DNA from: a virus | IMG/VR virus record: IMGVR_UViG_3300030419_000651 | Coordinates: 1 to 24,277 of that record | Reading direction: 5' to 3' (one strand) | DNA length: 24,277 bases | Shown: positions 11,252-24,249 of the stretch, in pieces | Numbering within the stretch: the stretch's first letter is position 1 | How the letters are laid out: every line of letters starts with the position of its first letter | Made by a program: the position numbers and the translations under genes | The notes under the pieces: generated by a model | Databases searched by the model: none | Told to the model about the DNA's origin: nothing | Seen by the model: the letters and a program-made list of their open reading frames with translations, nothing else

Positions 11252-12216
11252 TGACAGCAAGAACGCCACTATGTTTTGATGGTTCTGACTTGAGGCAAAT
11301 GACCTCTGGTGAGATAACTGAGTGGAAACAATACATAGCATATCTTTATAGCACTGCACCAACTGTTACTGTGACAGTCGTTAGTAATAGTGGTACATTG
11401 TCTCCGACGATGGCAGACACTAGACTTCAAGCGGGTGCGGCAACAACAGGCCGCGCATCTTCATTTTTGAATGAGGCAGGAACAGCAGAACCTTCAACTG
11501 TAACAGTTAACTATGATAAACTCACTGGTCCAACGTATGACACATCATTAAGTGCAAATGCTGATACAAATAATCTCGCATTTCCTGTATATCTTGATGG
11601 TGATAATAATGTTCAGGCAATGTCATTAACAGACTATAAAGACACGTTTATCTACGCAACACTAAGTGACATGGCATCGTCTAGTGAGAGTGCATCTACA
11701 AATGGAACTTATACAATAGCAACTAGCACATCAGTTACAAACTACACAGAGGTTTCTGGAAGTAACACAGTTATTTTTGCTGATACTCGCGCAGATACTT
11801 CTGCATATAGCGCGGCAGGTATCCCTGAGACACTTGACCAACCCACCACTGTGACAAGTTATTACTTGCAGAGACGCAGCGACTCAAGGTCTTTTCCATC
11901 ACAGGCACTTCTTCTGACAGATTCGAATGGTAATTTAACTCAGACCGACTTGACATCAGATACAAGTTCATTTAACGCAATTCTAAAAAACGACATTCGT
12001 TTTTACGCAGCAGAGGATTCAGCAGGAAATAAATTATCATATAACATTAATGGTTCTGGTAACTCACGCGGAAGTGCTATGGTTGATACAAGACTGAATG
12101 GAAGTGGTAATTATCAGACTTTGTTGGCTGGTCTTGATGATTATCGTTCACAGGAATTTCCAGATGGTTCTCCCGCGACTATAAATACATATACATTCAA
12201 AATCACTCAGGTGTAA
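11251..12216 (+). CDS. Virion structural protein, marine T4-like type
   Basis: A 321-residue protein starting 'MTARTPLCFDGSDLRQMTSGE', a beginning I associate with structural proteins encoded next to fibre genes in T4-like marine phages. The rest is Ser/Thr/Asn-rich and strand-like, without membrane segments. It has a dense run of Ser, Ala and Thr between about residues 140 and 190 and a Gly/Asn-rich tail ('YNINGSGNSRGSAMVDTRLN'). Its ATG overlaps the fibre stop (TAATG), indicating translational coupling with the fibre, so a fibre-tip or baseplate accessory role is reasonable. A perfect late promoter octamer lies inside its last codons. The exact function is unknown to me. Confidence 0.7.
   Translation: MTARTPLCFDGSDLRQMTSGEITEWKQYIAYLYSTAPTVTVTVVSNSGTLSPTMADTRLQAGAATTGRASSFLNEAGTAEPSTVTVNYDKLTGPTYDTSLSANADTNNLAFPVYLDGDNNVQAMSLTDYKDTFIYATLSDMASSSESASTNGTYTIATSTSVTNYTEVSGSNTVIFADTRADTSAYSAAGIPETLDQPTTVTSYYLQRRSDSRSFPSQALLLTDSNGNLTQTDLTSDTSSFNAILKNDIRFYAAEDSAGNKLSYNINGSGNSRGSAMVDTRLNGSGNYQTLLAGLDDYRSQEFPDGSPATINTYTFKITQV
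12180..12187 (+). promoter_or_regulatory. Putative T4-type late promoter (TATAAATA)
   Basis: A perfect TATAAATA octamer lies in the last codons of the preceding structural gene, 41 bases before the ATG at 12228. An AAGGAAA ribosome site follows at about 12215-12221. It is well placed to drive the 188-residue gene and the overlapping accessory genes to 17581. By composition alone about one or two such octamers per strand would be expected in the window, so position rather than mere presence is the argument. Confidence 0.55.
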
Positions 12217-12227
12217 GGAAAATCAAC

Positions 12228-12794
12228 ATGGCATATTTTTGGGAAGGTAAAATCGCAGACGTTGTTTACGCAAATCCAGAATTAGACACAGTAAAGATTC
12301 TGTGGAAAGATGAAGGTGACGCTTATCATGAACATTACCTTGAAGTTAATGAGGAAGATGATCAGTTTAAGGCACTTTTAGAAAAGGTTGGGTATGATGA
12401 TATTGACGACAGGACTCGGGCTGCAAATGAAATAGTTCGTCAAGAGTTCAAGACCGCATTTGCGGATTATGCAGAACGCATGGGGATGAACATCGATCCC
12501 GAAAAAAATCCAGAGTACAAAGATGCAGACTATTTCAATTTTTTTGTCTCTTTTGATTCAGAAAATCCAGAACACAAAGAAAGATTATTTTCTCTCAAAC
12601 TCAATATATTTGAACAGGATGAGGTAAAGAACGCTGATACATCTGAAAGATCAAAGAGCGCGAAGACTGCTATTAGAAAAGCAACGCAACCATATCAGAT
12701 TCTTGCTTTTCGTGAAATTTTCAGAAACGAAAATACAGAAATCAAAAAAGATGATGATGGTAACATTATTGGAGTTTACGTTTCTTTTGAATAA
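12228..12794 (+). CDS. Conserved-looking acidic protein of unknown function
   Basis: A 188-residue, acidic, soluble protein with no signal peptide or membrane helix. It opens with 'AYFWEGKIADVVYANPELDT' and 'VKILWKDEGDAYHEHYLEV', which suggests a small beta domain, followed by helical text with many Glu, Lys and Asp. I do not recognise a family. A good ribosome site (AAGGAAA) precedes the ATG, and a late promoter octamer lies 41 bases upstream. Its last codons overlap the likely TTG start of the next gene by eight bases. It follows the fibre genes and precedes the modification enzymes, so it could belong to either group. Confidence 0.8.
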   Translation: MAYFWEGKIADVVYANPELDTVKILWKDEGDAYHEHYLEVNEEDDQFKALLEKVGYDDIDDRTRAANEIVRQEFKTAFADYAERMGMNIDPEKNPEYKDADYFNFFVSFDSENPEHKERLFSLKLNIFEQDEVKNADTSERSKSAKTAIRKATQPYQILAFREIFRNENTEIKKDDDGNIIGVYVSFE

Positions 12795-13503
12795 TATAAT
12801 ATGTATGAAGTGGGGTGATAAGTATGAGAATGATTATGTGGAGAAACTAAAAGAGCAGTGCGAGAAAAACTGTTCTGTTGATTTCAACTTCTATTGTTTT
12901 ACTGACAACCCGATTCGTGATTATGATATACAACTTCCGACATACCTAGACAAACACTACGATCAGGACAAAGGTTTCTTTTGGGCCTGGCGTAAGTGTT
13001 ATATGTTCAGTGATGACTATGTTGAGGGTAACAAGTTTCTTTTTCTTGACCTTGATGTTATCATTCACCAAGACCTCAAATATTTCTTTGAGTTGCCAAT
13101 GGACAAACCTTGGATTGTCCGTGGGTGGTGGAATAACATGGAAACAGTCAAGAAGAACTATGCTCGTTATAAATCAACACCACTTAACTCGTCTGTCATT
13201 CGATGGAACAGGGGTCAAATGATTCCTGTCCTACAACATGTTAGAGATAATGCGGAGGTTATTTTCTTTACATATCCTAGTTTAGATAATTACTTTGCCC
13301 ATCACTGGTATGACCCTTGGGAAGACAGTGGTTATGTTCAAGGATTTCCACAAGGTGATATTTATTCTTGGTATAAGGGTAATGTGTTTCCTGATGATAT
13401 GAAGAGTAATATACTTAGGCATGACCACAAGATTTGTTTGTTTAACAATAGTGGATTTACAGAAGGTGAGAATGATGATAAATGGAATTACATTAACGCC
13501 TGA
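12787..13503 (+). CDS. GT-A type glycosyltransferase (first of two paralogues)
   Basis: A nucleotide-sugar glycosyltransferase fold protein of 238 residues. 'FLFLDLDVIIHQDL' supplies the DxD metal/nucleotide-sugar motif (Asp88, Asp90), followed by 'GWWNN' and 'WNRGQM'. I choose the TTG at 12787 over the ATG at 12805. The codons from TTG read 'MNNIICMKWGDKY', which matches 'MDIIAVRIGDKY' at the start of the paralogue at 16141 and restores the first beta strand of the fold; the ATG would cut it off. The TTG start overlaps the previous stop by eight bases, with GGAG at 12771-12774 as a possible, rather distant, ribosome site. Sugar donor and acceptor are unknown. Late expression and a place among virion genes suggest decoration of the virion or of a late-made glycan. 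Confidence 0.82.
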   Translation: MNNIICMKWGDKYENDYVEKLKEQCEKNCSVDFNFYCFTDNPIRDYDIQLPTYLDKHYDQDKGFFWAWRKCYMFSDDYVEGNKFLFLDLDVIIHQDLKYFFELPMDKPWIVRGWWNNMETVKKNYARYKSTPLNSSVIRWNRGQMIPVLQHVRDNAEVIFFTYPSLDNYFAHHWYDPWEDSGYVQGFPQGDIYSWYKGNVFPDDMKSNILRHDHKICLFNNSGFTEGENDDKWNYINA

Positions 13504-14125
13504 TCTATTATATCTTTGGAAAAAATCCCTTGTGGGTGCCATGAGAGATTCACCTCATGCTTTTGATAGGGTGATATCTTCTATTAATGCATCACAATTA
13601 CAAAGTAAGTTGTGGATTGTTAATGAGTTGAATAACCTTAATATTCATCAAAAGTCAGCGGCTCTTCTGGGTGGGTGGTATGCTCACTTCACTGTCCCTC
13701 TTTTATTAGAACAGGGTGTTGAGTTCGTTCATAACTTTGAAATAGATGAAGATGTTAAGAGAATTAGTTACAAGTTTAATAAAGAACATAAGGACAATGA
13801 CCGATACAAGTGTGACATTGTAAATGTCATGTTCGAACCTATCTGGAAAAAACAAAAGAAAACAGATAGGGTTTTTGATTTGGTGATTAACACATCATGC
13901 GAGCACATGTTTCCCATGAAACAATTTCACAAACTCAACAGAGGGTTTCTTGACAATCCAGTTTTTGTCTTACAGTCAACCAATGAGGATAAATATGATG
14001 ATCACATAAACTGTGTGAACGGTCCAGAGGAACTTGCAGAGCAATCAGAACTGGTGGACATTATGTACAGCGGTACGAAAACGTTAGACAGCGGTATGGA
14101 GAGGTTTATGGTGATAGGCAAATGA
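13475..14125 (+). CDS. SAM-dependent methyltransferase-like protein
   Basis: A 216-residue Rossmann-fold protein. 'AALLGGWYAHFTVPLL' (about residues 62-77) occupies the glycine-rich motif I position after a strand. 'VHNFEIDEDVKRISYKFN' supplies the acidic residue expected after the second strand to bind the SAM ribose. 'LVINTSCEHM' (residues 136-145) is a motif-IV-like active-site strand that I recall from phage proteins annotated as class I methyltransferases. The frame is open from 13421, but I start at 13475: AAGGTGAG at 13463-13470 gives proper spacing to that ATG (13472 is a close alternative). It overlaps the glycosyltransferase by 29 bases and ends in an ATGA overlap with the oxygenase. 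The methyl acceptor is unknown. Confidence 0.75.
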   Translation: MINGITLTPDLLYLWKKSLVGAMRDSPHAFDRVISSINASQLQSKLWIVNELNNLNIHQKSAALLGGWYAHFTVPLLLEQGVEFVHNFEIDEDVKRISYKFNKEHKDNDRYKCDIVNVMFEPIWKKQKKTDRVFDLVINTSCEHMFPMKQFHKLNRGFLDNPVFVLQSTNEDKYDDHINCVNGPEELAEQSELVDIMYSGTKTLDSGMERFMVIGK

Positions 14126-14826
14126 GTCATAAACAGATTGTAGATTGGTGTAGAGATAATGATGTTTGGTATCTCAAAATGGATATAGAGATACCAGAGG
14201 TTTGTATTCAAGAGGCACAGGCTGTGTATGATGAGGGGTTCTTTGTGGAACATCGTTTTGGTAATGGTGGTCATGGTGGTTGGAAGTCTGCATCTATTCA
14301 TAGTTTTGTGGAGAAAGGTAAAGACCTAGACATGGGTTGGTTTCACACTAAGAACCCAGAGGGCCATGGATTGCGAGAGGAAGATGTTGAGTGGGGTTGG
14401 ACAGAGATTGCTGAAGTATGCCCAGAGACAAAGAGATGGTTAGAGGAGTTCCCCCACAAATCTTATCGACGTTTACGTTTCATGTTGTTAGAGCCTGGTG
14501 CGGGTATTGACGCACATAACGATGCAAGTCCTCAAAGAGTTCGTGAGGGTAGAATTAGAAACATTGCTGGTGCAATCAACATTGCATTCTATCAACCAGA
14601 GAACTGTTACCTGAGACGGGCAGATACGAAAGAGGAGTTGCCCTTTGAGAACTGTACTGGTTTCTGGTTTGACAATGGCGTGGAACACGAAGCACTAAAC
14701 AGTTCGAATGAGAACAGATATCACTTTATCATGCACGGTGGTTTCAATAAAGAGCGTGAAGAGTTGATGAAAAAGTCTATCGTAAAGCAGTTTGGTAAAG
14801 ATGTCTTGAAAGAGATTTATGAATAA
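14122..14826 (+). CDS. Aspartyl/asparaginyl beta-hydroxylase-like 2-oxoglutarate/Fe(II) oxygenase
   Basis: A 234-residue protein with the jelly-roll oxygenase signature. 'RLRFMLLEPGAGIDAHND' carries the HxD pair (His132, Asp134), 'FWFDNGVEHEAL' supplies the third iron ligand His189, and Arg199 in 'NENRYHF' is placed to bind the 2-oxoglutarate carboxylate. This arrangement is that of the AspH-type family, which hydroxylates Asp/Asn in proteins or small carboxylated substrates. All expected ligands are present, so it should be active. Its ATG overlaps the methyltransferase stop (ATGA) and its end overlaps the next gene by eight bases, indicating coupled translation within the accessory cassette. 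The substrate is unknown; a virion protein side chain or a glycan-linked amino acid are both possible. Confidence 0.82.
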   Translation: MSHKQIVDWCRDNDVWYLKMDIEIPEVCIQEAQAVYDEGFFVEHRFGNGGHGGWKSASIHSFVEKGKDLDMGWFHTKNPEGHGLREEDVEWGWTEIAEVCPETKRWLEEFPHKSYRRLRFMLLEPGAGIDAHNDASPQRVREGRIRNIAGAINIAFYQPENCYLRRADTKEELPFENCTGFWFDNGVEHEALNSSNENRYHFIMHGGFNKEREELMKKSIVKQFGKDVLKEIYE

Positions 14827-16153
14827 TTTTGATGAATTTGTAAGTTTGTGGATGTCAGAAACATCTGACATAAAAATAAAAGAACCTAATTTTTTGTTTT
14901 TGGTGGTTTATCCCGATAAACTAAAATGGGATTTTGGAATAGAGAAACAAACACAAACGACAACAATGAATGTCTCTGGTGGGTGGACAGGTTCATCAAC
15001 TGGCAATGATGTTCAATTTTGTTATAGAAGTGAGGTTGATGATTTTTTAAAAAACTGTAACCACACACATGCGATGATTGTTTCTGTGGGTATGGTTTTT
15101 GATATGGTCACATCAGAGACATCAACGAAAGGAAAGTGGAGAGATAGTTTCAATGTCAAACCAAATCAGGTAACTGCGATTACAGACTTCTATGATTTTG
15201 TGGAGAGTGGTCAGTTTTGCAAAGCTCACATAATGGCAAGACCAAACCATAGGGCATATTTTCATCATCAACATATGAACTTGAATTTGATAACTTGGAG
15301 GGATATTGGAACTCCTAACATGTCTGATAGATATGATGTTGTTAAACGATCCTCTGATAATTTCCATGACGACTATACACCATCATGGATAGAGGTGGTA
15401 GGGTTGCCTACTATCACGAATTTTACTAGAGAGGAGAGAACAAGAAAATCCTTTTCGTACTATAGGGATCATCAAACTGAATCTTGGACAAACTTAAAAA
15501 ATGTAGACCGTGGTGATTATTACTTCAGTCGTTTCATGACACGCATGGAACCCGCATTTTATCTATTCAACACAGAAAGTTTCCAGAAAGTACCAAAAGA
15601 AAAATTTGACATTATCTTTTCGCCTACTGCTGGATATAACACAGAACTTCTCGTTGAAGAGTTGAAGTTTAGTGGAGAGGTCATATTCTATGACTACACT
15701 CAAAAAAATATTGACACAAAGAAAACTATTGTGGACATGGGTATGTCTTTAGACGAATTGCACTCTTATACGGAGATACAACGCAGTAGAAACATAAACA
15801 TGGCCGACAACTCTAAAAACTCTGGTGCGGCTGATAGAATAGTTTCTATGGGTAGTCACGAAAAACTTAGACAACTACAAGAGAAGATGCGTGATGAACA
15901 AGAGGTGGAGTATTGGTTGATGGATGTTATAAATCCAGACTATAACAAACTCTCAGAAAAAGTCAAGGGAAAAAATGTTTTCTTTGATACGAGTAACATT
16001 TTTGGTTATCATATGTCTCATGCTTATAACACCTTAGATAAACTGGTTATTTCTTATAACAAATTACATAAGACTTTGATTGAGTCATCCAATATGTGTT
16101 GGTTTCAAGGAACTAAACCCACGAAACAGATGGTGAGAAAATGGATATCATAG
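14819..16153 (+). CDS. Unrecognised 444-residue protein, possibly two-domain, C-terminal half Rossmann-like
   Basis: I recognise no named family. The N-terminal half (about residues 1-200) has alternating hydrophobic strands ('FLFLVVYPDKLKWDF', 'HAMIVSVGMVFDMV') and a His/Asn-rich patch ('MARPNHRAYFHHQHMN') that could bind a metal or nucleotide. From about residue 255 the text 'FDIIFSPTAGYNTELLVEEL' then 'EVIFYDYTQKNI' looks like strand-glycine loop-helix-strand with an acidic tip, as in Rossmann or methyltransferase folds. 'GKNVFFDTSNIFGYHMSHA' may be a later strand and loop. No signal peptide or membrane helix is seen. It overlaps the oxygenase upstream by eight bases and the second glycosyltransferase downstream by 13, so it is translated as part of the cassette and probably acts in the same process. 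Confidence 0.8.
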   Translation: MNNFDEFVSLWMSETSDIKIKEPNFLFLVVYPDKLKWDFGIEKQTQTTTMNVSGGWTGSSTGNDVQFCYRSEVDDFLKNCNHTHAMIVSVGMVFDMVTSETSTKGKWRDSFNVKPNQVTAITDFYDFVESGQFCKAHIMARPNHRAYFHHQHMNLNLITWRDIGTPNMSDRYDVVKRSSDNFHDDYTPSWIEVVGLPTITNFTREERTRKSFSYYRDHQTESWTNLKNVDRGDYYFSRFMTRMEPAFYLFNTESFQKVPKEKFDIIFSPTAGYNTELLVEELKFSGEVIFYDYTQKNIDTKKTIVDMGMSLDELHSYTEIQRSRNINMADNSKNSGAADRIVSMGSHEKLRQLQEKMRDEQEVEYWLMDVINPDYNKLSEKVKGKNVFFDTSNIFGYHMSHAYNTLDKLVISYNKLHKTLIESSNMCWFQGTKPTKQMVRKWIS

Positions 16154-16842
16154 CAGTTCGTATCGGTGACAAGTATGGACCAGAGTACGAAAAATATCTA
16201 GAGAGAAAGTTATCGAAGTACAATATCATCTGGATACGAGAGCCATATGATGACAGGGTGACTTTACAGTGGAATAAGATGTGGGGTATGCAGATGGAGA
16301 CAGACGAACCTATCTGTGTAATGGACATTGATGTTCTTCTCATCAACGACTACGAGAAAATCTTTGACTACCCGATTGAACGAGGACAGTTTGTTGCGAT
16401 GCCGGGATGGTGGAGAAACGATGTCAATGAGTATCGCATCAATGGAGGGTTTTTCAAATACTATCCGAAGGACTGTCGATATATCTACGACAAGTTCATG
16501 AGTGACATTCATCACTGGCAGAAGTTCTACATTGAAAACGGAACGACAACAGGACCAGTGAACGGAGAACAGTATTTCGTAGAGGATAGCATCAGAGAAC
16601 AGTTGGACCTTGTGGTTCTACCAAACGAATGGTTTACAAGATGGGTTGTTAGTGATGAAATAGTTTCTGGCAGTGTCAACCGATGGAACTATAACATGAC
16701 ACAGAAGTATGAATCTCTTACAGGGAACGACTACATATACATGGGTGGGGAGTTTCATCCTGATATAAAGTATGTTCACTTTACTAATAGACTAAACAAG
16801 CCACATGAGTGGAGAGACTATGAGAATTTTTGCAGCAACTAG
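16141..16842 (+). CDS. GT-A type glycosyltransferase (second paralogue)
   Basis: A 233-residue protein paralogous to the glycosyltransferase at 12787. Both begin with a strand plus 'GDKY' ('MDIIAVRIGDKYGPEYEKYL' here), and both have a DxD motif after a hydrophobic strand ('ICVMDIDVLLINDYEKIF', Asp62 and Asp64). Both are followed by an aromatic 'GWW' segment ('AMPGWWRND'). 'VNGEQYFVEDSI' further on could hold acceptor-side or catalytic residues. A GGTGAG ribosome site at about 16132-16137 precedes the ATG, which lies inside the previous gene's last 13 bases. The sequences have diverged well beyond a recent copy, so different donor or acceptor sugars are likely. This is a soluble enzyme without membrane anchors. 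Confidence 0.82.
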   Translation: MDIIAVRIGDKYGPEYEKYLERKLSKYNIIWIREPYDDRVTLQWNKMWGMQMETDEPICVMDIDVLLINDYEKIFDYPIERGQFVAMPGWWRNDVNEYRINGGFFKYYPKDCRYIYDKFMSDIHHWQKFYIENGTTTGPVNGEQYFVEDSIREQLDLVVLPNEWFTRWVVSDEIVSGSVNRWNYNMTQKYESLTGNDYIYMGGEFHPDIKYVHFTNRLNKPHEWRDYENFCSN

Positions 16843-17581
16843 CTCTTCCTCAGATAGTGTCGCTATGTTGTACAAACTTCTCACTGAAACCACGGATGAT
16901 ATTGTATCAAGAATACTCCACCTTGACGCATCTGATCAGGATTTGAAACAGTATCCGATTGTGTGTAACTGGTTGAAAGAAAACGTTCGTGATTTTGATT
17001 TTGGTCTTTCAGAGTTTGAAGACCGTGCCGATGATACTAAGTTAGAAACTATAAGATCAAAAAATTACAACGTTGCATTGTTGTCAGAGACGCACAAGGT
17101 TGATTTGATATGTCTTGGTATAAATACATATAATTGGAGTCATGCTACTTGGTATTTCCAAACGAGAGAACCTATTGACAATTTTTATGCAAAAGATAAT
17201 CGATACTCTAGAGTAGATCATTCCATCCTTAGAGATTATACAGATATTCCTATCGACTGGCCACTGATGAATCGTAAAACTAAACCTATGGGTCGATGGC
17301 AAACGTGGGAAACAATACCACAAGAATTACAAAAATTAGTTTCTATGTGTCCTTGTGGAGAGTGTTCTAAATGTAAATGTTGGGATTGGTATAGTAAAAA
17401 GAAAAATGAGGGGTTTAGTGCAGAGGAACTTGATGATCTGATTATGAAAGAGGGGAAATACGGAAAATATTACACAAAAGATAGTGTTACGGAAACCAGA
17501 CATAATGCTTATACTGACCAAATATTTCCAGTATGGAGTCCAGCTTATCAACCATTGCCAACGAAACCTCACAATAAATAA
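16820..17581 (+). CDS. QueC-like PP-loop family protein with degenerate ATP motif (paralogue 1)
   Basis: A 253-residue relative of the two PP-loop proteins at 20277 and 21695. The shared skeleton is a short first strand followed by the ATP pyrophosphatase loop, 'LLTET', 'RDFDFGLSEF' and 'GRWQTWETIPQELQKLVSMC'. The loop reads 'SSSSDS' (residues 8-13) where the family has SGGxDS, so the two glycines are missing though the Asp is kept. A Cys cluster (Cys177, 179, 182, 185, 187) sits where QueC-type enzymes bind zinc. The frame is open from 16805, but I use the ATG at 16820, six bases after GGAG at 16811-16814. It overlaps the glycosyltransferase by 23 bases and closes the accessory cassette. It may be catalytically weak, a regulatory partner, or bind a different ligand. 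Confidence 0.72.
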   Translation: MRIFAATSSSSDSVAMLYKLLTETTDDIVSRILHLDASDQDLKQYPIVCNWLKENVRDFDFGLSEFEDRADDTKLETIRSKNYNVALLSETHKVDLICLGINTYNWSHATWYFQTREPIDNFYAKDNRYSRVDHSILRDYTDIPIDWPLMNRKTKPMGRWQTWETIPQELQKLVSMCPCGECSKCKCWDWYSKKKNEGFSAEELDDLIMKEGKYGKYYTKDSVTETRHNAYTDQIFPVWSPAYQPLPTKPHNK

Positions 17582-17584
17582 TGT

Positions 17585-17592
17585 TATAAATA
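17585..17592 (+). promoter_or_regulatory. Putative T4-type late promoter (TATAAATA) upstream of gp13
   Basis: A perfect TATAAATA octamer lies in the 30-base gap between the first accessory cassette and gp13, 19 bases before the gp13 ATG. The strong ribosome site AAAGGGGAG (about 17598-17606) lies just downstream. This is the clearest promoter candidate in the window because it is intergenic and precedes a conserved late gene. Confidence 0.7.
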
Positions 17593-17611
17593 TAGATAAA
17601 GGGGAGTTTTT

Positions 17612-18433
17612 ATGGCCACACCCACCTCAAGATCAACATTTAAAAATTATTGTCTCAGGGCACTTGGATTTGGGGTTATCGACATCAACGTGTCAGATGA
17701 CCAAGTTGATGACCGCATAGATGAAGCACTTCAATATTTTGCAGAGTACCACTACGATGGTGTAGAGAGAATGTATCTCAAACATCTGATTACCGAAGCA
17801 GATGTTACCCGTGCAAGGTCTGACATAACAACTTCCGTAACAGACGTTGGAGATGGATCAACAACTGCTGATTGGTTAGAAGGAAAGAACTGGATACCTG
17901 TTCCAAATTCTGTGTTAGCTGTCGTACAGGTGTTCCCTTTTACAGATACAGGTGGTGGGTCTAATATGTTTGACGTTCGGTATCAGTTACGACTGAACGA
18001 TTTGTTTGACCTGTCATCCACATCAGTTATTCAGTATCAGATGTCTATGGACAACCTAGACCTTCTGGAACATATCCTTGTGGGTGAAACTCCTATTAGA
18101 TTTAGTCAACATCAAGAAAGACTTTATATTGATGCAGATTGGGAGAACGACTTTACGGCTGGGGAAGATTATATTATTATTGAGTGTTATAGAAAGTTAG
18201 ACCCAACAACTTACACGGACGTATTCAACGACATGTATCTCAAGAGATATGCCACCGCACTCATTAAGAGACAGTGGGGTGCGAACTTATCTAAGTTCAA
18301 TGGTGTTGAGATGTTAGGTGGTGTTACCATGAACGGTGCAGAAATATATTCGCAGGCTCAAGAAGAGTTAACTAAACTAGAAGAACAGATTCAACTCGCA
18401 TTTGAACTTCCTGTTAATTACATGGTTGGATAA
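17612..18433 (+). CDS. 13: Neck protein gp13
   Basis: A 273-residue homologue of T4 gp13 (309 residues), one of the two neck proteins that close the filled head and create the site where the tail joins. Recognisable marks are the helical N-terminus 'FKNYCLRALGFGVIDINVSD' followed by 'DDRIDEALQYFAEYHYDGVE'. Further marks are 'RLYIDADW' and the helical C-terminal part 'YLKRYATALIKRQWGANLSK' with 'LGGVTMNGAEIYSQAQEEL'. The start follows an excellent ribosome site and its own late promoter candidate. It is followed after two bases by gp14, in T4 order. Confidence 0.95.
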   Translation: MATPTSRSTFKNYCLRALGFGVIDINVSDDQVDDRIDEALQYFAEYHYDGVERMYLKHLITEADVTRARSDITTSVTDVGDGSTTADWLEGKNWIPVPNSVLAVVQVFPFTDTGGGSNMFDVRYQLRLNDLFDLSSTSVIQYQMSMDNLDLLEHILVGETPIRFSQHQERLYIDADWENDFTAGEDYIIIECYRKLDPTTYTDVFNDMYLKRYATALIKRQWGANLSKFNGVEMLGGVTMNGAEIYSQAQEELTKLEEQIQLAFELPVNYMVG

Positions 18434-18435
18434 AC

Positions 18436-19467
18436 ATGGCAGTCAATAGCGCATTTCATACAAGTAACCAAGCAGCAATCACAACAGAGAAAAATCTGTA
18501 TGCAGATTTGATTGCAGAGGCAATTCAGATTTACGGTCATGATGTGCATTATCTTGACCGCACACTTGTTGCCGAGGATAATTTTTTTGGAGAAGACTCT
18601 CTGTCCAAGTTCAACACTCAGGCAAAGATTGAGATGTATGTCGAGAATACTAGTGGTGGATATGCTGGTGAACGAGAGTTGATGACTCAGTTTGGTTTAC
18701 AAAACCTTAGTGAAGTTACCTTCGTTGTTAGTAAGAACAGATTTAGAGATATCACAAAACAGTTTACGATTGAGAGTGGGACGGACACGTTGTCTGGTTC
18801 TATTCTTTTAGAGAGTGGAACACTAGACAGTGATGAGGTAGACATTCCCTCTTCATTCGAAGGTGGTTATTTAATCTCGGAAGCAGACTCTACAGATGAA
18901 GACAGACCGCAAGAGGGGGATGCAATCTACCACCCTATCCTTGGTAAACTGTTTGAGATTAACTTTGTTGATCACGATCAACCTTTCCATCAGTTAGACA
19001 ACAATCCAGTTTACAAAATGAGTTGTCGTCTGTTCGAATATGGATCAGAGGTTCTTGACACAGACATTGCTGCGATTGATGCAATAGAAACCGCAGAGTC
19101 ACTAGATACATACACATATCAGTTTACACTTGAACAGACTGCATCTGCTACAGTTAATCAAGAGATTAGGATTGACCACGCAACCAGCGAGGGTAGTGGA
19201 TTACTTCTGCTTGATAGAACAGACAGTGACGGAACGGATGCTGGTGACAATCTTATTGGTGAGGATGAAACGCCGGGTGGTGAGTCCATTCTTCTTGAGA
19301 ATGCAGCAGACACAGGTGATCCATCATACCTCATCAATGAGGAATATATAGTGGGTGACCAATCAACAGATAAGGTCAATCAGAATGAACTATTCGATGA
19401 ACTGGATGATGACATCCTAGACTTCAGCGAATCAAATCCATTCGGTGACGCGGGAGAACCATCGTAA
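18436..19467 (+). CDS. 14: Neck protein gp14, with inserted repeat region
   Basis: A 343-residue homologue of T4 gp14 (256 residues), the partner of gp13 in the head-tail neck. The conserved part is the N-terminal half: 'NLYADLIAEAIQIYGHDVHY', 'FNTQAKIEMYVENTSGGYAG', 'LSEVTFVVSKNRF' and 'GDAIYHPILGKLFEINFVDH', then 'YKMSCRLFEYGSEVLDT'. The added length is in acidic inserts: 'SGSILLESGTLDSDEVDIPS' near residue 120, and residues about 256-304 with 'DSDGTDAGDNLIGEDE' and 'ESILLENAADTGDPSYLI'. The latter resemble the C-terminus of the tail fibre at 9083. Its stop and the gp15 start share one base (TAATG). Confidence 0.94.
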   Translation: MAVNSAFHTSNQAAITTEKNLYADLIAEAIQIYGHDVHYLDRTLVAEDNFFGEDSLSKFNTQAKIEMYVENTSGGYAGERELMTQFGLQNLSEVTFVVSKNRFRDITKQFTIESGTDTLSGSILLESGTLDSDEVDIPSSFEGGYLISEADSTDEDRPQEGDAIYHPILGKLFEINFVDHDQPFHQLDNNPVYKMSCRLFEYGSEVLDTDIAAIDAIETAESLDTYTYQFTLEQTASATVNQEIRIDHATSEGSGLLLLDRTDSDGTDAGDNLIGEDETPGGESILLENAADTGDPSYLINEEYIVGDQSTDKVNQNELFDELDDDILDFSESNPFGDAGEPS

Positions 19468-20267
19468 TGTTAGGACAACAATTTTATCACGAAACAACTA
19501 GAAAGGTGGTCGTTGCATTTGGAACGTTATTCAACGACATTCACCTTGTTCGTAAAGACAACAGTGGAACAATTCAACAGTCGATGAAAGTGCCTCTTGC
19601 GTATGGGCCGCGACAGAAGTATCTTGTTCGATTGAATGACGATCCAGACCTATCAAAGTCTACGGCGGTGACACTCCCTCGTATCGGGTTTGAGATTGCT
19701 GGAATATCTTATGACCCAACAAGAAAACTACAACGTGTGCAGAAGTTTAAAAAAGTCAAGGGTGCAAAAGCAAATCAGTTAGACACCCAGTATATGCCTG
19801 TGCCCTATAACATCGACTTTGAATTGTATATTCTATCAAAACAGTCAGACGATGCATTGCAGATTGTTGAACAAATTCTACCATACTTCCAGCCTGATTA
19901 CACAGTCACAATCAATGACAACACAGACATGGGTATCAAGAGAGATGTCCCTGTTATTCTAAACAGCATTGCGTATGAGGATGACTATCAGGGTGACTTT
20001 GCAAGTCGTAGGGCTATCATCTATACACTTTCTTTTACTGCAAAATTCTATCTGTATGGTCCTGTTACATCCAGTAAGGTTATTAAGACGGTACAGGTTG
20101 ACCAGTATACAGATATGCCTGATCAGTCACCGAAGAGAGAACAGAGATATAGTGTTACACCAAACCCAACAAGTGCTGATGCTGATGATGATTTTGGTTT
20201 CAGTGAGACAACCTCTTTCTTCCAAGACGCAAAAGAATTCAACTCAGAAACGGGGAGTGATGAATAA
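19467..20267 (+). CDS. 15: Proximal tail sheath stabilisation protein gp15
   Basis: A 266-residue homologue of T4 gp15 (272 residues), whose hexamer caps the tail tube and sheath and binds the neck. The start 'GQQFYHETTRKVVVAFGTLF' and 'DIHLVRKD' is typical. 'VPLAYGPRQKYLVRL' and 'LPRIGFEIAGISYDPTRKLQ' follow, then 'YNIDFELYILSKQSDDALQI' and 'QILPYFQPDYTVTINDN', the conserved core. The C-terminal 40 residues are Ser/Asp/Glu-rich and probably flexible. Translation is coupled to gp14 by a one-base overlap. The next gene is an accessory PP-loop protein nine bases downstream, so the conserved block is interrupted before gp16. Confidence 0.95.
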   Translation: MLGQQFYHETTRKVVVAFGTLFNDIHLVRKDNSGTIQQSMKVPLAYGPRQKYLVRLNDDPDLSKSTAVTLPRIGFEIAGISYDPTRKLQRVQKFKKVKGAKANQLDTQYMPVPYNIDFELYILSKQSDDALQIVEQILPYFQPDYTVTINDNTDMGIKRDVPVILNSIAYEDDYQGDFASRRAIIYTLSFTAKFYLYGPVTSSKVIKTVQVDQYTDMPDQSPKREQRYSVTPNPTSADADDDFGFSETTSFFQDAKEFNSETGSDE

Positions 20268-20276
20268 GTAAATATT

Positions 20277-20351
20277 ATGAAAATATTAATACCGTTTTCT
20301 GGTGGAATAAATTCTACATATTCACTTTATCGTTGGTTGACTGAGACTGAC
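20277..20351 (+). repeat. 5' block of PP-loop gene duplication (copy at 21695-21769)
   Basis: The first 75 bases of the two genes differ at about nine positions by eye, all or nearly all silent, with a shared run of 26 bases at the end of the block. This shows two related copies under protein-level constraint rather than independent acquisition. Confidence 0.85.
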
Positions 20352-21074
20352 GCTGATGTTATTGTTCGATATTCATATGAACAATTTGAGAGTGAAGAGT
20401 ATAATTCTAGAGAATTTAAAAAATTACAAGAAATTATTATTTTTTTAAAATCAGAGGTTAGAGATTTTGATTTTCAAATGATAAACTGGTCCATTGATTA
20501 CGTCGAAGAACGTATACCAATTAGACCCGGCTTCTCTAATTCATATGACTATGGTTGTCTTAAACCTAGATTTGAAAGTTTTCCAACATGGATTAAAGAA
20601 ACTTGTGTTGATGCTATAACACTTGGGTGGTCGTTAGAAAATACAGCAACTGATGGGTATGATCTTTATAGAGTGTATCCTGAGAGTGTAGACGTAGATA
20701 TTTACTTGGCTGGAATTCGTGATCTAACACCAGTTCCACAGGGCGATGATTTTGAGTGGGAGGATATAACTTCAAAAATGATAGGTAGGTTCGAGCAATA
20801 CGAGTCAATACCAGAAGAGTTGCAAAGTTTAGTTCTCAAATGTGATTTAAATACATGTGAAGACAACCAGTGTCGTAACTGTGCTTACCAAAGAACATAT
20901 GAAAAATTTATCAGTGAGGGCAAAACAGGAAGAGACTTTGATTTGTATTGTGCTAAGGAAGGAAGTTATGGTCCTTGGAGACATGAAGCAGACCCAAAAA
21001 CTTATGGTTATCGTGGTGCGATAAAAAGTAGAGATGGTAAACTAGCTACTCTTCCATATCTAATTTATAAGTAA
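20277..21074 (+). CDS. QueC-like PP-loop ATPase family protein (paralogue 2)
   Basis: A 265-residue member of the N-type ATP pyrophosphatase fold. 'ILIPFSGGINSTYSLYRWL' places the PP-loop at residues 8-14. The usual SGGxDS Asp is Asn12 here. A Cys cluster (Cys189, 194, 199, 202; CxxxxCxxxxCxxC) lies in the C-terminal third, where QueC enzymes bind zinc. It shares 'YVEERIPIR', 'GRFEQYESIPEELQSL', 'GKTGRDFDLYCA' and 'GSYGPWRHEADP' with the gene at 21695. QueC activates a carboxylate with ATP and converts it to a nitrile on the way to preQ0. None of its pathway partners is in the window, so I name only the fold. It sits nine bases after gp15 with no perfect promoter of its own. Confidence 0.8.
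   Translation: MKILIPFSGGINSTYSLYRWLTETDADVIVRYSYEQFESEEYNSREFKKLQEIIIFLKSEVRDFDFQMINWSIDYVEERIPIRPGFSNSYDYGCLKPRFESFPTWIKETCVDAITLGWSLENTATDGYDLYRVYPESVDVDIYLAGIRDLTPVPQGDDFEWEDITSKMIGRFEQYESIPEELQSLVLKCDLNTCEDNQCRNCAYQRTYEKFISEGKTGRDFDLYCAKEGSYGPWRHEADPKTYGYRGAIKSRDGKLATLPYLIYK
20916..20996 (+). repeat. 3' block of PP-loop gene duplication (copy at 22331-22411)
   Basis: An 81-base block encoding the 'EGKTGRDFDLYC' to 'WRHEADP' region is nearly the same in both PP-loop genes, while the middle of the genes has diverged strongly. The pattern fits either conversion between the copies or strong constraint at both ends. Confidence 0.8.
21066..21073 (+). promoter_or_regulatory. Late-promoter-like element (TATAAGTA) in the stop of PP-loop paralogue 2
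   Basis: TATAAGTA has one mismatch to TATAAATA. It is formed by the last codons and stop (TAT AAG TAA) and lies 14 bases before the ATG at 21088. The same place in the duplicated gene carries a perfect octamer (22466-22473), which is the main reason to list it. Confidence 0.35.
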
Positions 21075-21087
21075 AATAGGATTGATT

Positions 21088-21693
21088 ATGTTAATGAAGA
21101 AATTGTTAAGCAATATTAATGTTGCGCCGATATGTGATGAAGTTGATGAGGGTCTATGGGAAAAATCTTTAGCGCGTCATAACCCCGTAACGTGGAAAAA
21201 TACAGATGGGCAGATTCTTATAGAATACGAGAAAGTTCCTTTTCCGTATAAACCATTTAAAAAATATCTTGGTGATTTACCAGAAGATATGAAAGATATG
21301 CTTCTTCCTGATTTTTGGCCAACTGAAAATTATTTTTATTACCCGCAAACACACAAATTTCTTCATTGGTTTACAAAGACATATGGGGGTAAATTTGCGA
21401 GAGTAATTTATTATCACACACAACCAAAAAATGGAGTGGGAAAACACGCTGATGGCGCGAGACTTTCACCCGATGATGCTGGTTGGCCTATGTTCGAAAA
21501 CAAAGACAGATTTTCTCTTGTAGTTTCCGGCGAGTATACGTTCACGGTTGATGAAGAAACTGAGCATTTTAAAACAGGCGATCTATGGTGGTTTGCTAAT
21601 AAACTTCCTCACGTTCATTCATCTTATAATCACGGCGATACAAGTAAAACAAATCTTATTTTTGATATTGAAGGGTCGCGCTGGAGAGAGTAG
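21088..21693 (+). CDS. 2-oxoglutarate/Fe(II) oxygenase-like protein (second hydroxylase)
   Basis: A 201-residue protein with a probable AspH-like double-stranded beta-helix. 'VGKHADGARLSPDD' gives the HxD pair (His120, Asp122), and 'LWWFANKLPHVHSSYNHGD' gives the third ligand (His175 or His177). The co-substrate position, usually Arg, appears to be Lys187 in 'TSKTNLIFDI'. A TTG at 21082 is in frame, but the ATG at 21088 has AGG at 21077-21079 at normal spacing and is preferred. It is little like the oxygenase at 14122 outside the motif, so it is not a recent copy. It lies between the two PP-loop paralogues, 13 bases after one and one base before the other. Confidence 0.72.
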   Translation: MLMKKLLSNINVAPICDEVDEGLWEKSLARHNPVTWKNTDGQILIEYEKVPFPYKPFKKYLGDLPEDMKDMLLPDFWPTENYFYYPQTHKFLHWFTKTYGGKFARVIYYHTQPKNGVGKHADGARLSPDDAGWPMFENKDRFSLVVSGEYTFTVDEETEHFKTGDLWWFANKLPHVHSSYNHGDTSKTNLIFDIEGSRWRE

Positions 21694-21694
21694 T

Positions 21695-22531
21695 ATGAAA
21701 ATACTCATACCATTCTCAGGTGGCATAAACTCTACATATTCTCTTTATCGTTGGTTGACTGAGACTGATGATGACATTGTAGTTCGATACGGAGTTGACC
21801 GTTTCGAAAACGATGACTATAATTCAAAAGAACTTGAAAGAGTTCAAAGTGTATCACACTTTCTTAAAAAAGAGTATCGTGATTTTGATTTAGAATTGGG
21901 TGAGTTTCCCAAAGAATATGTAGAGGAGCGTATTCCAGTTCGAGCAGGATTTAAAAAAGGAGAGTATGATATTGGTTCTCTTAGACCACGTTATGCTGGA
22001 TATATAAACTGGTGTTTCGAAACAGACGCTGACGGGGTATCCATAGGAATATGTTTAGAAAATACATCAACTCAGGGTTACGAAGTGAGTCGTCGGGAAT
22101 CTGGTATTGAAAATATTGGTGTTGACATATATTTGGGCGGTGTGAGAGAGTTGGTTCCAGTGGCCACTGGAGATGATTTCAACTATGATGAAGTCGCAAA
22201 ACATATGATGGGTCGATTTGAACAATACGAACTGTTGCCAAAAGAATTACAAGATTTGTCTACTAGGTATTCAGAATCCCGTGATGGGCGTGAGGTTGCG
22301 TATTGGAGAACATATAAAAAATTTATTGATGAGGGAAAGACAGGACGTGACTTTGATTTGTATTGTGCAGAAAAAGGAAGTTACGGTCCTTGGAGACATG
22401 AAGCAGACCCAGAAGATTATATGTATAGGGGTCGAGACGAAGATGGAAAGTTACCTTACTTGATTTATAAATACAAAGGGAGACTGCAAAATGACCTACA
22501 CAGTAACAAAAACTTACACGAAACAAAATGA
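21695..22531 (+). CDS. QueC-like PP-loop ATPase family protein (paralogue 3)
   Basis: A 278-residue close paralogue of the gene at 20277, with identical first 25 residues including the SGGINST loop (Asn12 in place of Asp). The Cys cluster is lost: where paralogue 2 has four Cys, this protein reads 'STRYSESRDGREVAYWRTY'. The open frame reaches back to 21548, but homology fixes the start at the ATG at 21695, with GGAGAGAG just upstream. It continues about 19 residues past the point where paralogue 2 ends ('PYLIYK'), reading through the promoter and ribosome site of the next gene and overlapping it by 41 bases. This tail is probably due to loss of the stop. Without the Cys cluster it may need a partner or have a changed substrate. 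Confidence 0.8.
   Translation: MKILIPFSGGINSTYSLYRWLTETDDDIVVRYGVDRFENDDYNSKELERVQSVSHFLKKEYRDFDLELGEFPKEYVEERIPVRAGFKKGEYDIGSLRPRYAGYINWCFETDADGVSIGICLENTSTQGYEVSRRESGIENIGVDIYLGGVRELVPVATGDDFNYDEVAKHMMGRFEQYELLPKELQDLSTRYSESRDGREVAYWRTYKKFIDEGKTGRDFDLYCAEKGSYGPWRHEADPEDYMYRGRDEDGKLPYLIYKYKGRLQNDLHSNKNLHETK
22466..22473 (+). promoter_or_regulatory. Putative T4-type late promoter (TATAAATA)
   Basis: A perfect octamer inside the 3' end of PP-loop paralogue 3 lies 17 bases before the ATG at 22491, with AAAGGGAG between them. Initiation near 22480 would leave a very short leader. It could drive the 114-residue gene, gp16 and the synthetase-like gene. Confidence 0.5.
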
Positions 22532-22835
22532 CGCAACCTTTTGGCCATGGGAAAAAGAAGGATATTCCGGGCATCTAGACAATGTAAGAAGTGAAAATAA
22601 ATTAATTTCTACTGCTCTAAATGAAGATGGAAACACTGCAACTGTAACTCAGGTATGGTCATCAAAATCAGACTATGTGGATGTTATGGTAAATAAGAAT
22701 GATGACAGTATAAAATCATTTTATAATACTTACAATACTTACATGGCAATCAACAACGTATCCTGTAGAATTGTTGAAGAGGATGGAACTGCCAAAGTTT
22801 TTAACTCTTCTAGTCAATCACATGAATTAGAGTAG
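22491..22835 (+). CDS. Small protein of unknown function
   Basis: A 114-residue soluble protein. The pattern of strands and helices ('MTYTVTKTYTKQND', 'NTATVTQVWSSKSDYVDVMV', 'SIKSFYNTYNTYMAINNVSC') is like a small ferredoxin-type or dimeric alpha/beta-barrel domain, but I cannot assign a family. The ribosome site is AAAGGGAG at about 22475-22482. The gene overlaps PP-loop paralogue 3 by 41 bases and ends ten bases before gp16. It shows no similarity to T4 genes known to me, and could belong to the enzyme set or be an independent insertion. Confidence 0.72.
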   Translation: MTYTVTKTYTKQNDATFWPWEKEGYSGHLDNVRSENKLISTALNEDGNTATVTQVWSSKSDYVDVMVNKNDDSIKSFYNTYNTYMAINNVSCRIVEEDGTAKVFNSSSQSHELE

Positions 22836-22844
22836 ACATTCGCT

Positions 22845-23252
22845 GTGCCTAAAGAAATTGAAATAGAGAAAGCACTTGGGGTCATTGACAAGGTTGTTCC
22901 CCAAGAGGTTGTCGTAGAGAAAAAAGAAATTGTTATGCCTAGTAATGGAGAGGATATTGATAATGACTATGAATACCAAAGACGAAACTTCTACAATCTG
23001 GTCGAAAGAGGAACGGATGCAGTGGAAGGAATACTGGAACTCGCCAAAGAATCGGAACATCCACGAGCGTATGAGGTCGCCGGAAACCTCATCAAACAGG
23101 TTGCTGATGTTACTGAGAAACTTGGTGAGCTTCAAGAGAAAATGAAAAAACTTAAAGAGGTTCCAGATCACGGACCTAAGAACGTTACCAACGCACTGTT
23201 TGTAGGAAGCACTGCTGAACTACAGAAGATGTTAAAGGGGAAAAGTGAGTAA
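22845..23252 (+). CDS. 16: Terminase small subunit gp16
   Basis: A 135-residue homologue of the T4 small terminase (164 residues), which recognises DNA for packaging and stimulates the large subunit. The diagnostic part is 'DNDYEYQRRNFYNLVERGTD' with 'EHPRAYEVAGNLIKQVADVT', then 'EKLGELQEKMKKL' and the C-terminal 'NVTNALFVGSTAELQKML' that I recall in marine T4-like gp16. I use the GTG at 22845, because the residues it adds ('MPKEIEIEKALGVIDKVVP') look like a real acidic helical N-terminus; the in-frame ATG at 22935 would remove them. In T4 gene 17 follows directly; here a synthetase-like gene overlapping by eight bases intervenes. Confidence 0.9.
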   Translation: MPKEIEIEKALGVIDKVVPQEVVVEKKEIVMPSNGEDIDNDYEYQRRNFYNLVERGTDAVEGILELAKESEHPRAYEVAGNLIKQVADVTEKLGELQEKMKKLKEVPDHGPKNVTNALFVGSTAELQKMLKGKSE

Positions 23253-24249
23253 GATTATATATTATTATCTTCTTTCATTTCCAGAGATATTTGAAAGAGA
23301 TGAGTACAGATTAGCAAATACTTTCGGTTTACACTCCCCTCGTTTTAGAATTGGTTTTGATAATCAATTGGACTTGGTAGAGAATCCTCTTATCGATATC
23401 CCAATAAGTTTTACATCAACCCTCGAAGAACTGACTAATCGTAGGGCTATAGAGTTGTGGGATATTGGGAAACCAATACGATTGTGGTGGTCTGGTGGCA
23501 TAGACAGTACATGTGCATTGGTGAGTTTTCTAAAAACTATGAGGTTGGATACGGACCTTATCGTTTATCTATCGAAAAACAGTGTGAAAGAAAATCCACG
23601 TTTTTACGATTTATTGGTAGATAAGAAAGTAAAGTTGCAGTGGCATTCTCACGATAACTATGTTCATAACAATGATGAGTTATGGAACGGACAAACAATC
23701 AATGTGAATGGTGGCGGTGGGGATGAACTGTTTCTTGCAATATCGTCAAAAATGTCTATGGAAGAATTCTTCAAAATTAAAGATGAAAACTGGATTTACC
23801 TTATGAAAGACCCTGATATGTTAAAGACGGCAGAAAAATATATTGATATGTCTCCGTACAAACCAGAAACGTGTTGGGAGTTTCTTTGGTGGTTAGCAAG
23901 GAGTATAGATGATTTATTGTCAGTATATTTTTCACCAAGATTTTTAAAAGACCCATCCGTGTATCACTTAGAATATCCATTTTTCTATACAGATTACTTT
24001 GATAAGTGGGCTTTATCTAATCCATACGCAGGGCATAACGGTGACTATAGAACATACAAATGGCCAATGAAAAAATACATATATGATTATGATAAGAATG
24101 AAGATTACTTGTATACAAAACAGAAGGAAAGTTCTTTTCCCTCAGTTGTCCTTGAGCAAACGCAAATCCAATATCTAGGGGCGTCTCGTAATGAATATGC
24201 TCTCAATAGTATCGTATATGAGGACGGCACATTTGTTAGATATAAATAG
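23245..24249 (+). CDS. Asparagine-synthetase-like PP-loop protein lacking the glutaminase domain
   Basis: A 334-residue protein resembling the synthetase domain of AsnB-type enzymes, which adenylate a carboxylate and transfer an amine to it. 'LWWSGGIDSTCALVSFL' contains an intact PP-loop SGGIDS (residues 83-88), and 'NVNGGGGDELFLA' (Asp160, Glu161) matches the AsnB GxGxDELF segment. AsnB is about 550 residues and begins with a glutaminase domain whose first residue is a catalytic Cys. Here residues 1-75 show no such Cys or domain, so ammonia or another amine must come from elsewhere. The start is the GTG at 23245, with AAGGGG just upstream, overlapping gp16 by eight bases. The last codons form a late-promoter octamer. 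The product is unknown; it may work with the three other PP-loop proteins. Confidence 0.8.
   Translation: MSKIIYYYLLSFPEIFERDEYRLANTFGLHSPRFRIGFDNQLDLVENPLIDIPISFTSTLEELTNRRAIELWDIGKPIRLWWSGGIDSTCALVSFLKTMRLDTDLIVYLSKNSVKENPRFYDLLVDKKVKLQWHSHDNYVHNNDELWNGQTINVNGGGGDELFLAISSKMSMEEFFKIKDENWIYLMKDPDMLKTAEKYIDMSPYKPETCWEFLWWLARSIDDLLSVYFSPRFLKDPSVYHLEYPFFYTDYFDKWALSNPYAGHNGDYRTYKWPMKKYIYDYDKNEDYLYTKQKESSFPSVVLEQTQIQYLGASRNEYALNSIVYEDGTFVRYK
24241..24248 (+). promoter_or_regulatory. Putative T4-type late promoter (TATAAATA) in a stop codon
   Basis: A perfect octamer is formed by the last codons and stop (TAT AAA TAG) of the synthetase-like gene. It lies only six bases before the next ATG (24254), so if it is a promoter the transcript would be nearly leaderless for that ATG, or it would serve a start beyond the window. 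Confidence 0.45.

Follow-up and report, generated by a model that had tools for sequence, protein, structure and literature searches.

We report that a fragment of a T4-like phage genome, IMG/VR record IMGVR_UViG_3300030419_000651, carries five consecutive enzyme genes that are inherited as a unit in its relatives and that follow the phage's fibre genes through genomic rearrangement and loss. The record is a linear fragment of 24,277 bp and was analysed in its entirety (hereafter, the window). The five genes, which we call the core cassette, encode two glycosyltransferase-like proteins (GTa and GTb), a methyltransferase-like protein (MT), a 2-oxoglutarate (2OG)-Fe(II) oxygenase (OX1) and a phage-only protein (U444), and they lie between the fibre-side genes fib, fib2 and w7 and the neck gene gp13. 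The explanation that we favor, with a probability of roughly 50%, is that the cassette is a decoration module for the phage's own tail fibre or for the fibre-associated protein fib2, these two being taken as the likely substrate because the cassette follows both of them through rearrangement and loss.

Conservation of the core cassette

The core, in the order GTa-MT-OX1-U444-GTb, occupies positions 12787-16842 of the window. Up to 300 IMG/VR loci were annotated with profiles, and among the 37 distinct complete intervals between w7 and gp13, all five genes are present in the order of the window in 32, none is present in four (L187, L189, L190 and L226) and one is partial (L212, without OX1 and U444). 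A sequence-only reading of the window had proposed that the enzymes could form one pathway, with joint gain and loss in relatives as the check; such joint behaviour holds for the glycosyltransferases, MT, OX1 and U444, whereas the part of the set made up of PP-loop proteins varies independently. A separate scan returned 60 distinct OX1 genes, with MT upstream and U444 downstream in all 50 cases that can be judged on both sides; for L261 and L280, the two exceptions, a judgement is possible on a single side. The conserved order of the five genes indicates that the island is not a chance assortment. In L212, which is 99.8% identical to L209, OX1 and U444 are deleted, plus 255 bp between fib and fib2, through either a natural deletion or an assembly effect.

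Median identity to the window is 81% for OX1, 75% for GTb and 69% for GTa, alongside 77% for gp13, 81% for gp15, 51% for fib2 and 40% for w7. By this measure OX1 and GTb are conserved to the same degree as the neck proteins, whereas fib2 and w7 vary. Relative to the closest relative, L171, insertions fall precisely at the w7/GTa and OX1/U444 junctions, and identity between the two phages is 94-96% for the other core genes but only 61% for U444, from which we conclude that U444 alleles have been exchanged.

Association of the cassette with the fibre genes

In all 40 cases with enough upstream sequence to decide, fib2 and w7 lie upstream of the cassette. One rearranged record (G001, locus L159) has the order fib-fib2-w7-GTa-MT-radical S-adenosylmethionine (SAM) enzyme-U444-GTb-GNAT-gp8-VrlC, and the genes VrlC-s73-gp13-gp14-gp15-gp16 are at its far end; the cassette, here without a close OX1, has thus left the neighbourhood of gp13 and travelled with the fibre side. 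A near-isogenic pair, L188 without the core and L191 with it, shares 95-97% identity outside fib2-w7. Homology between the two is 96.5% across VrlC and into the beginning of fib, disappears in distal fib, returns at 91% over fib2-w7, breaks cleanly at the 6.8-kb cassette of L191 and resumes at 95% from the GNAT gene onward. The differences are confined to distal fib, which encodes the fibre tip, and to the whole cassette, and the coreless fibre differs at its C-terminal end.

Several observations weigh against a fibre-directed role. Phages with fib2 and w7 and no cassette exist (L187-L190, L226 and L179), so the fibre is not dependent on the cassette. L195 has the core, yet its fibre is 69% identical to that of L188 over 281 amino acids, and the association with the fibre tip therefore rests on few lineages. 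The assignments of MT and GTa are weak. Adjacency by itself also fits an insertion hotspot, the Pelagibacter phage HTVC008M having four unrelated oxygenases at this place. In that case there would be no common pathway, and each enzyme inserted between VrlC and gp17 would have its own role, for example in 2-oxoglutarate or nitrogen metabolism; a 2-oxoglutarate hypothesis has been published for cyanophage oxygenases (PMC3037559), the accessory genes of the island do vary independently, and the same region of HTVC008M also has a halogenase annotation. Set against this, 36 of 37 intervals have either the complete five-gene core, in a fixed order, or none of it, and OX1 stands between MT and U444 in every one of the 50 judgeable cases, which makes a hotspot of unrelated functions improbable in our view.

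Nearly all fibres encoded upstream of fib2 end in a conserved short tail (LLIKNSSGTTLKT..GAGA, QLLIKDSNGAIVRAI.., NVIEIRDSGGGLLNSV..), and the C-terminal tail of the window's fib, QLLIKDSNGAIVRAIYGVGGDGAV (nt 11180-11251), is similar to a motif that most relatives' fibres have close to their C-terminus. This tail is not in the C-terminal ends of the HTVC008M and Melnitz fibre genes examined. Among cassette-bearing fibres, the motif is found in 24 of 35 by a strict regular expression and in 33 of 35 by eye, but the coreless L226 has it too, and it is therefore a lead only. Two further candidates were rejected: the C-terminal carboxylate as the target of a PP-loop enzyme, given that the last fibre residues vary (GAGA, GMT, FAPGAI, GGDGAV), and an extra small open reading frame (ORF) between fib and fib2 as the substrate, as it is present with and without the core.

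Probable late expression from the fibre operon

The T4-type late promoter motif TATAAATA occurs five times in the window (12180, 17119, 17585, 22466 and 24241), always on the plus strand and against an expectation of 1.25, and four of these copies precede w7, gp13, a 114-aa ORF and the gene after the window. In relatives, the motif lies 20-27 nt ahead of gp13 in 52 of 58 and 25-28 nt ahead of w7 in 15 of 57, and it is also found ahead of the gp8-like gene and fib; the background rate is 2.75% of 180-nt windows. The enzyme genes of relatives have no such motif ahead of them, whether GTa (0/45), OX1 (0/53), U444 (0/50) or the PP-loop-like gene PPa next to gp13 (0/20). Since the motifs precede w7 and fib and not the enzymes, we infer that the fibre/w7 late unit extends into the enzyme genes, which make up its distal part. 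The sequence-only reading had placed the enzymes in compact late-promoter units; the core enzymes belong to the fibre late operon and have no promoters of their own.

This timing bears on the main rival explanation, in which the island modifies a host surface glycan, the lipopolysaccharide O-chain, late in the cycle and so blocks co-infection or the sticking of progeny to debris. In the available part of the account of pelagimyophage host recognition clusters (PMC7029224), modification of the host O-chain against co-infection is the view taken, and GT8 is the commonest glycosyltransferase family in such islands. The carbamoyl-, sulfo-, acetyl- and methyl-transferase-like genes of the relatives are typical of sugar tailoring, and the annotations of the island in the isolate Mosig include a nucleotide-sugar epimerase and a sugar aminotransferase. 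Lipid A hydroxylases (LpxO) also belong to the Pfam family of OX1. The core, however, is served by late promoters, whereas exclusion of co-infection would be expected early; none of the core enzymes has a transmembrane segment; the scanned proteins included no recognisable flippase, polymerase or lipid-carrier transferase; and the cassette moves and switches with the fibre genes. Taken together, we regard modification of the host glycan as a serious but rather unlikely alternative to decoration of the fibre.

Fold and motif evidence for the enzymes

The enzyme-fold genes that had been recognised within the virion gene block from the sequence are all encoded there, on the plus strand and at the positions in Table 1. 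By sequence, OX1 is a member of the aspartyl/asparaginyl beta-hydroxylase family (PF05118; 40.5 bits, cut-off 22.6), and its iron-binding residues H132, D134 and H189 are invariant in the alignment of relatives; action on a protein Asp or Asn is only predicted. The DxD motif is likewise invariant in both GTa and GTb. GTa matches the GT8 profile weakly (PF01501; 15.5 bits, under the cut-off of 24.3), GTb has a distant homologue in Mosig that matches a PHROG glycosyltransferase (5e-17), and MT is weakly recognisable as a methyltransferase. U444 had been listed as a protein without known function, which still describes its N-terminal part; the C-terminal part has a predicted SAM-methyltransferase-like fold (best structure match E 7e-4), within a poor whole-protein AlphaFold2 (AF2) model (predicted local distance difference test score, pLDDT, 48.5). 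The island therefore probably encodes two methyltransferases. Profile searches of the PDB with U444, OX1, GTa and GTb gave no usable match, 84,980 bacterial and archaeal genomes yielded no relative of U444, PPa, PPb or PPc, and tblastn against isolates found no homologue of U444, PPb, PPd, OX1 or w7.

The proposal that four PP-loop proteins are encoded (PPa to PPd) stands as far as fold and family are concerned. The AF2 model of PPb is a confident PP-loop fold (pLDDT 86), nearest to TtuA/LarE/MnmA, that is, tRNA thiolases and LarE, and to QueC (Foldseek E ~2e-5 for TtuA/LarE; for QueC 2pg3, TM-score 0.47/0.55 and E 3e-4). PPc (59% identity to PPb) and PPa (28%) are its paralogues. PPd has the motifs SGGIDS and GGGDELF, as in the synthetase domain of AsnB, and lacks the N-terminal glutaminase domain of asparagine synthetase B, leaving the synthetase-like part only. 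The qualification is that the P-loops of PPa (SSSSDS) and of PPb and PPc (SGGINS/SGGVNS) are altered from SGGxDS.

Such folds could mean that DNA or tRNA is the target of the oxygenases, PP-loop proteins and methyltransferases, through chemistry of the deazaguanine or thiolation type, given the nearest structural neighbours of PPb and the resemblance of the C-terminal fold of U444 to the tRNA methyltransferase MnmM. We consider this very improbable. The signature motifs of QueC (the Cx8CxxCxxC zinc motif, VPxRN, YPDC and YxQxHxxE; PMC13329287) are absent from all 21 PPa, PPb and PPc members, neither QueD nor GTP cyclohydrolase I (FolE) is present in the records of 20 long relatives, one of 148 kb, and the enzymes are placed in a late operon. 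Most of these records are fragments, so the absence of QueD and FolE is not final. On these grounds deazaguanine modification of DNA or tRNA was rejected as the main explanation, and the earlier judgement that a role in DNA base modification is disfavored agrees with ours. A partial QueC match (PF06508) above the cut-off is present at G016:C1:41810-42061, in the 72-kb record that holds L247 and on the same contig as the L247 core cassette.

Swappable accessory genes

The position directly 5' of gp13 is taken either by PPa (10 of 37 intervals) or by a GNAT acetyltransferase-like gene (25 of 37), never by both, and the two states switch seven times on the gp13 tree, at least five of them forced by well-supported branches. 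PPb, PPc, the AsnB-like genes and two further oxygenases, OX2 and OX3, vary freely between gp15 and gp17 in relatives; OX2 scores above the Pfam cut-offs for both Cupin_2 and Asp_Arg_Hydrox. We class OX2, the AsnB-like gene and the PP-loop genes as accessories that can be swapped, and the idea that all four PP-loop proteins act in one pathway with the core is not sustained. Relatives carry other accessories as well: a carbamoyltransferase, a GDSL-like protein, three radical SAM types, full AsnB, an AMP-binding enzyme, a nitroreductase, adenosine phosphosulfate kinase, sulfotransferase-like proteins and solute-binding proteins. Genes for the latter (DctP and TctC types) are found within the fibre/neck region at L035:3912-4856, L050:7014-8030 and L161:13489-14493. 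AsnB-like PP-loop genes form tandem pairs in several relatives (L089:5404-7595, L034:9499-13448), which suggests repeated expansion of the family.

This repertoire recalls the tailoring clusters of natural-product pathways, the AMP-binding, radical SAM, nitroreductase, carbamoyltransferase and AsnB-like genes in particular, and the AsnB-like genes weakly match models of lasso-peptide cyclases. The enzymes might then make a small metabolite, either diffusible or packaged in the virion. There is little to recommend this, as no carrier protein, non-ribosomal peptide synthetase or polyketide synthase, transporter or precursor peptide was recognised, and nothing about a diffusible product would require its pathway to lie between fibre and neck genes or to follow fib2 and w7.

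Genomic setting and known systems

Profile matches confirm gp13, gp14, gp15 and gp16 as neighbours of the enzymes, and the Gp8 annotation of a Mosig homologue does the same for the side of the island that had been attributed to gp8 (Table 1). Judged by gp15, the isolates closest to the window are Methylophilales phage Melnitz (65%) and HTVC008M (63%), and the GC content of the window is ~40% compared to the 30% reported for Mosig.

Table 1. Positions of genes and late promoters in the window, with the basis of each assignment.
Feature	Position	Strand	Basis
Baseplate wedge gene; upstream baseplate gene	513-2015	+	Mosig homologue annotated Gp8
VrlC-like giant protein	2017-8859	+	matches phrog_358; Mosig homologue annotated VrlC
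fib, tail fibre	9083-11251	+	PHROG tail fiber 1e-6; C-terminal alignment
fib2, Ser/Thr-rich fibre-associated protein; proposed cassette substrate or partner	11251-12216	+	46% identity in Mosig EXVC030M; alignment
T4-type late promoter ahead of w7, core cassette further downstream	12180-12187	+	motif search
w7, small acidic protein	12228-12794	+	profile match 7e-17 in Mosig
GTa, glycosyltransferase-like, core gene 1; TTG start overlaps w7 stop	12787-13503	+	invariant DxD
MT, class I methyltransferase-like, core gene 2	13472-14125	+	ORF opens at 13421; start ~13472 suggested by relatives
OX1, Asp_Arg_Hydrox-family 2OG-Fe(II) oxygenase, core gene 3	14122-14826	+	Pfam 3e-10; invariant HxD...H
U444, phage-only, N-terminal part of no known function and C-terminal SAM-methyltransferase-like fold, core gene 4	14819-16153	+	predicted fold
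GTb, glycosyltransferase, core gene 5	16141-16842	+	invariant DID; PHROG match of Mosig homologue
PPa, PP-loop-like, SSSSDS for SGGxDS, Cys cluster; GNAT in its place in relatives	16805-17581	+	alignment, relatives
gp13 late promoter, after core operon	17585-17592	+	motif search
gp13 (neck, Ad2)	17612-18433	+	profile match
gp14 (head closure)	18436-19467	+	profile match
gp15 (tail sheath stabiliser)	19467-20267	+	profile match
PPb, PP-loop ATPase-fold protein, SGGINS, Cx4Cx4Cx2C	20277-21074	+	predicted structure, motifs
OX2, cupin / Asp_Arg_Hydrox oxygenase, accessory; OX3 here in most relatives	21082-21693	+	Pfam, relatives
PPc, PPb paralogue without Cys cluster	21695-22531	+	alignment, motifs
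114-aa ORF, sporadic conservation, no function assigned	22491-22835	+	relatives
gp16 (small terminase)	22845-23252	+	profile match
PPd, AsnB-like synthetase domain (SGGIDS) without glutaminase; full AsnB adjoins in relatives	23245-24249	+	motifs

The VrlC-like gene contains, as an interruption of its baseplate protein, a Hint/intein-like domain (SCFVAGTMV...VVHNRD) at 6541-6984, the start of which matches Pfam Hom_end_hint (1.6e-9); ordinary splicing is doubtful because Arg, and not Cys, Ser or Thr, follows HN. The start motif of this domain recurs in only one relative (L174) among 77 VrlC-like ORFs. In two other loci (L182:1211-1873 and L211:11293-12090) an Asp_Arg_Hydrox oxygenase ORF separates the two parts of a split VrlC gene.

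Islands of this type have already been named. The host recognition cluster (HRC) of pelagimyophages (Zaragoza-Solas 2020, PMC7029224), in the available part of its description, lies between VrlC and the neck genes and comprises fibres, glycosyltransferases, radical SAM cassettes and an Asp/Asn hydroxylase called core to the group. The window shares the site, between the VrlC-like gene and gp13 (17612), as well as the combination of fibres and glycosyltransferases and the variable content. We found in that part of the description no fixed five-gene core, no joint loss of it and no link between it and fib2/w7, nor an exchange of PPa and GNAT or a role in modifying the fibre; the conserved core, the fibre linkage and the PP-loop/GNAT swap appear to be new.

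The isolate Mosig EXVC030M (MT647606) has the order VrlC-s73-fib-fib2-w7 followed by carbamoyltransferase, GDSL-like, radical SAM, MT-like and GTb-like genes, with an Asp_Arg_Hydrox gene further along the island. It differs in that its cassette is rearranged and on the opposite strand, extra sugar-biosynthesis genes are present, and searches detected neither U444 nor PP-loop genes nor a match to the OX1 profile. HTVC008M resembles the window in having its four oxygenases, of the 2OG-Fe(II) type, between the fibre genes and gp13, and oxygenase and halogenase annotations between gp16 and gp17, but these are on the opposite strand and no homologue of a core gene, fib2 or w7 was detected; none was found in Melnitz either. 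The collagen of mimivirus (L230; PMC9546862, from the available part) follows a shared logic, in which a 2OG hydroxylase makes an acceptor hydroxyl that viral glycosyltransferases extend, though with other enzyme families and another substrate, and it is an analogy only. Finally, the QueC-family proteins of defence systems (deazaguanylation by Cap9, and QatC) provide a precedent for a QueC-like enzyme that acts on protein (PMC13279940, PMC11996544). PPa, PPb and PPc share the PP-loop fold with these but have neither QueC signatures nor deazaguanine partners, and nothing points to the same chemistry.

A proposed model for decoration of the fibre

Stepwise decoration of the fibre or fib2 fits the data because the core genes are inherited jointly, share a late unit, encode soluble enzymes and make up a hydroxylase-transferase-methylase set. 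In the scheme that we propose, late transcription of the fibre operon would supply the five enzymes, which would work in the cytoplasm while virions are being assembled. The first step would be hydroxylation by OX1 of a side chain in fib or fib2, the candidate proteins on the fibre side, possibly with w7 as a helper, after which GTa and GTb would place one or two sugars drawn from host nucleotide sugars, and MT and U444 would methylate the sugar-bearing product. Lineage-specific accessories, namely PPa or GNAT, PPb, PPc, PPd or full AsnB, and OX2 or OX3, would add further groups, mostly through amide or acyl bonds, and the carbamoyltransferase, GDSL-like, radical SAM, sulfotransferase-like, AMP-binding and nitroreductase genes of relatives may contribute in the same way. 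With such lineage-specific groups, the decoration would differ between phages. The substrate, the order of the reactions and the identity of the sugars are conjectural, as is the benefit, which may lie in receptor binding or in protection from competitors or degradation.

A more speculative extension, which we hold to be doubtful, is that the PP-loop, AsnB-like and GNAT proteins are alternative enzymes for attaching something other than a sugar, via an amide bond, at one and the same sugar-decorated fibre site, giving one core with varied tips. The first candidate for the site would be the conserved Asp/Asn in the C-terminal tail of fib (residue 704, nt 11192-11194, in K-[D/N]-S-x-G). If true, this would amount to a modular chemistry of the phage coat that includes protein conjugation by PP-loop enzymes, which to our knowledge has so far been seen only in CBASS/Qat defence.

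T4-like phages that infect small marine bacteria occur in very large numbers, and the enzymes of their fibre region have been the subject of two published guesses, modification of the host O-chain and 2-oxoglutarate metabolism. A cassette that is linked to the fibre and disappears as a whole offers a specific and testable alternative, for which Mosig is an isolate with a related island. If our reading is right, these phages would build and diversify a covalent decoration of their receptor-binding apparatus, using enzyme families without a close cellular relative in the genomes searched.

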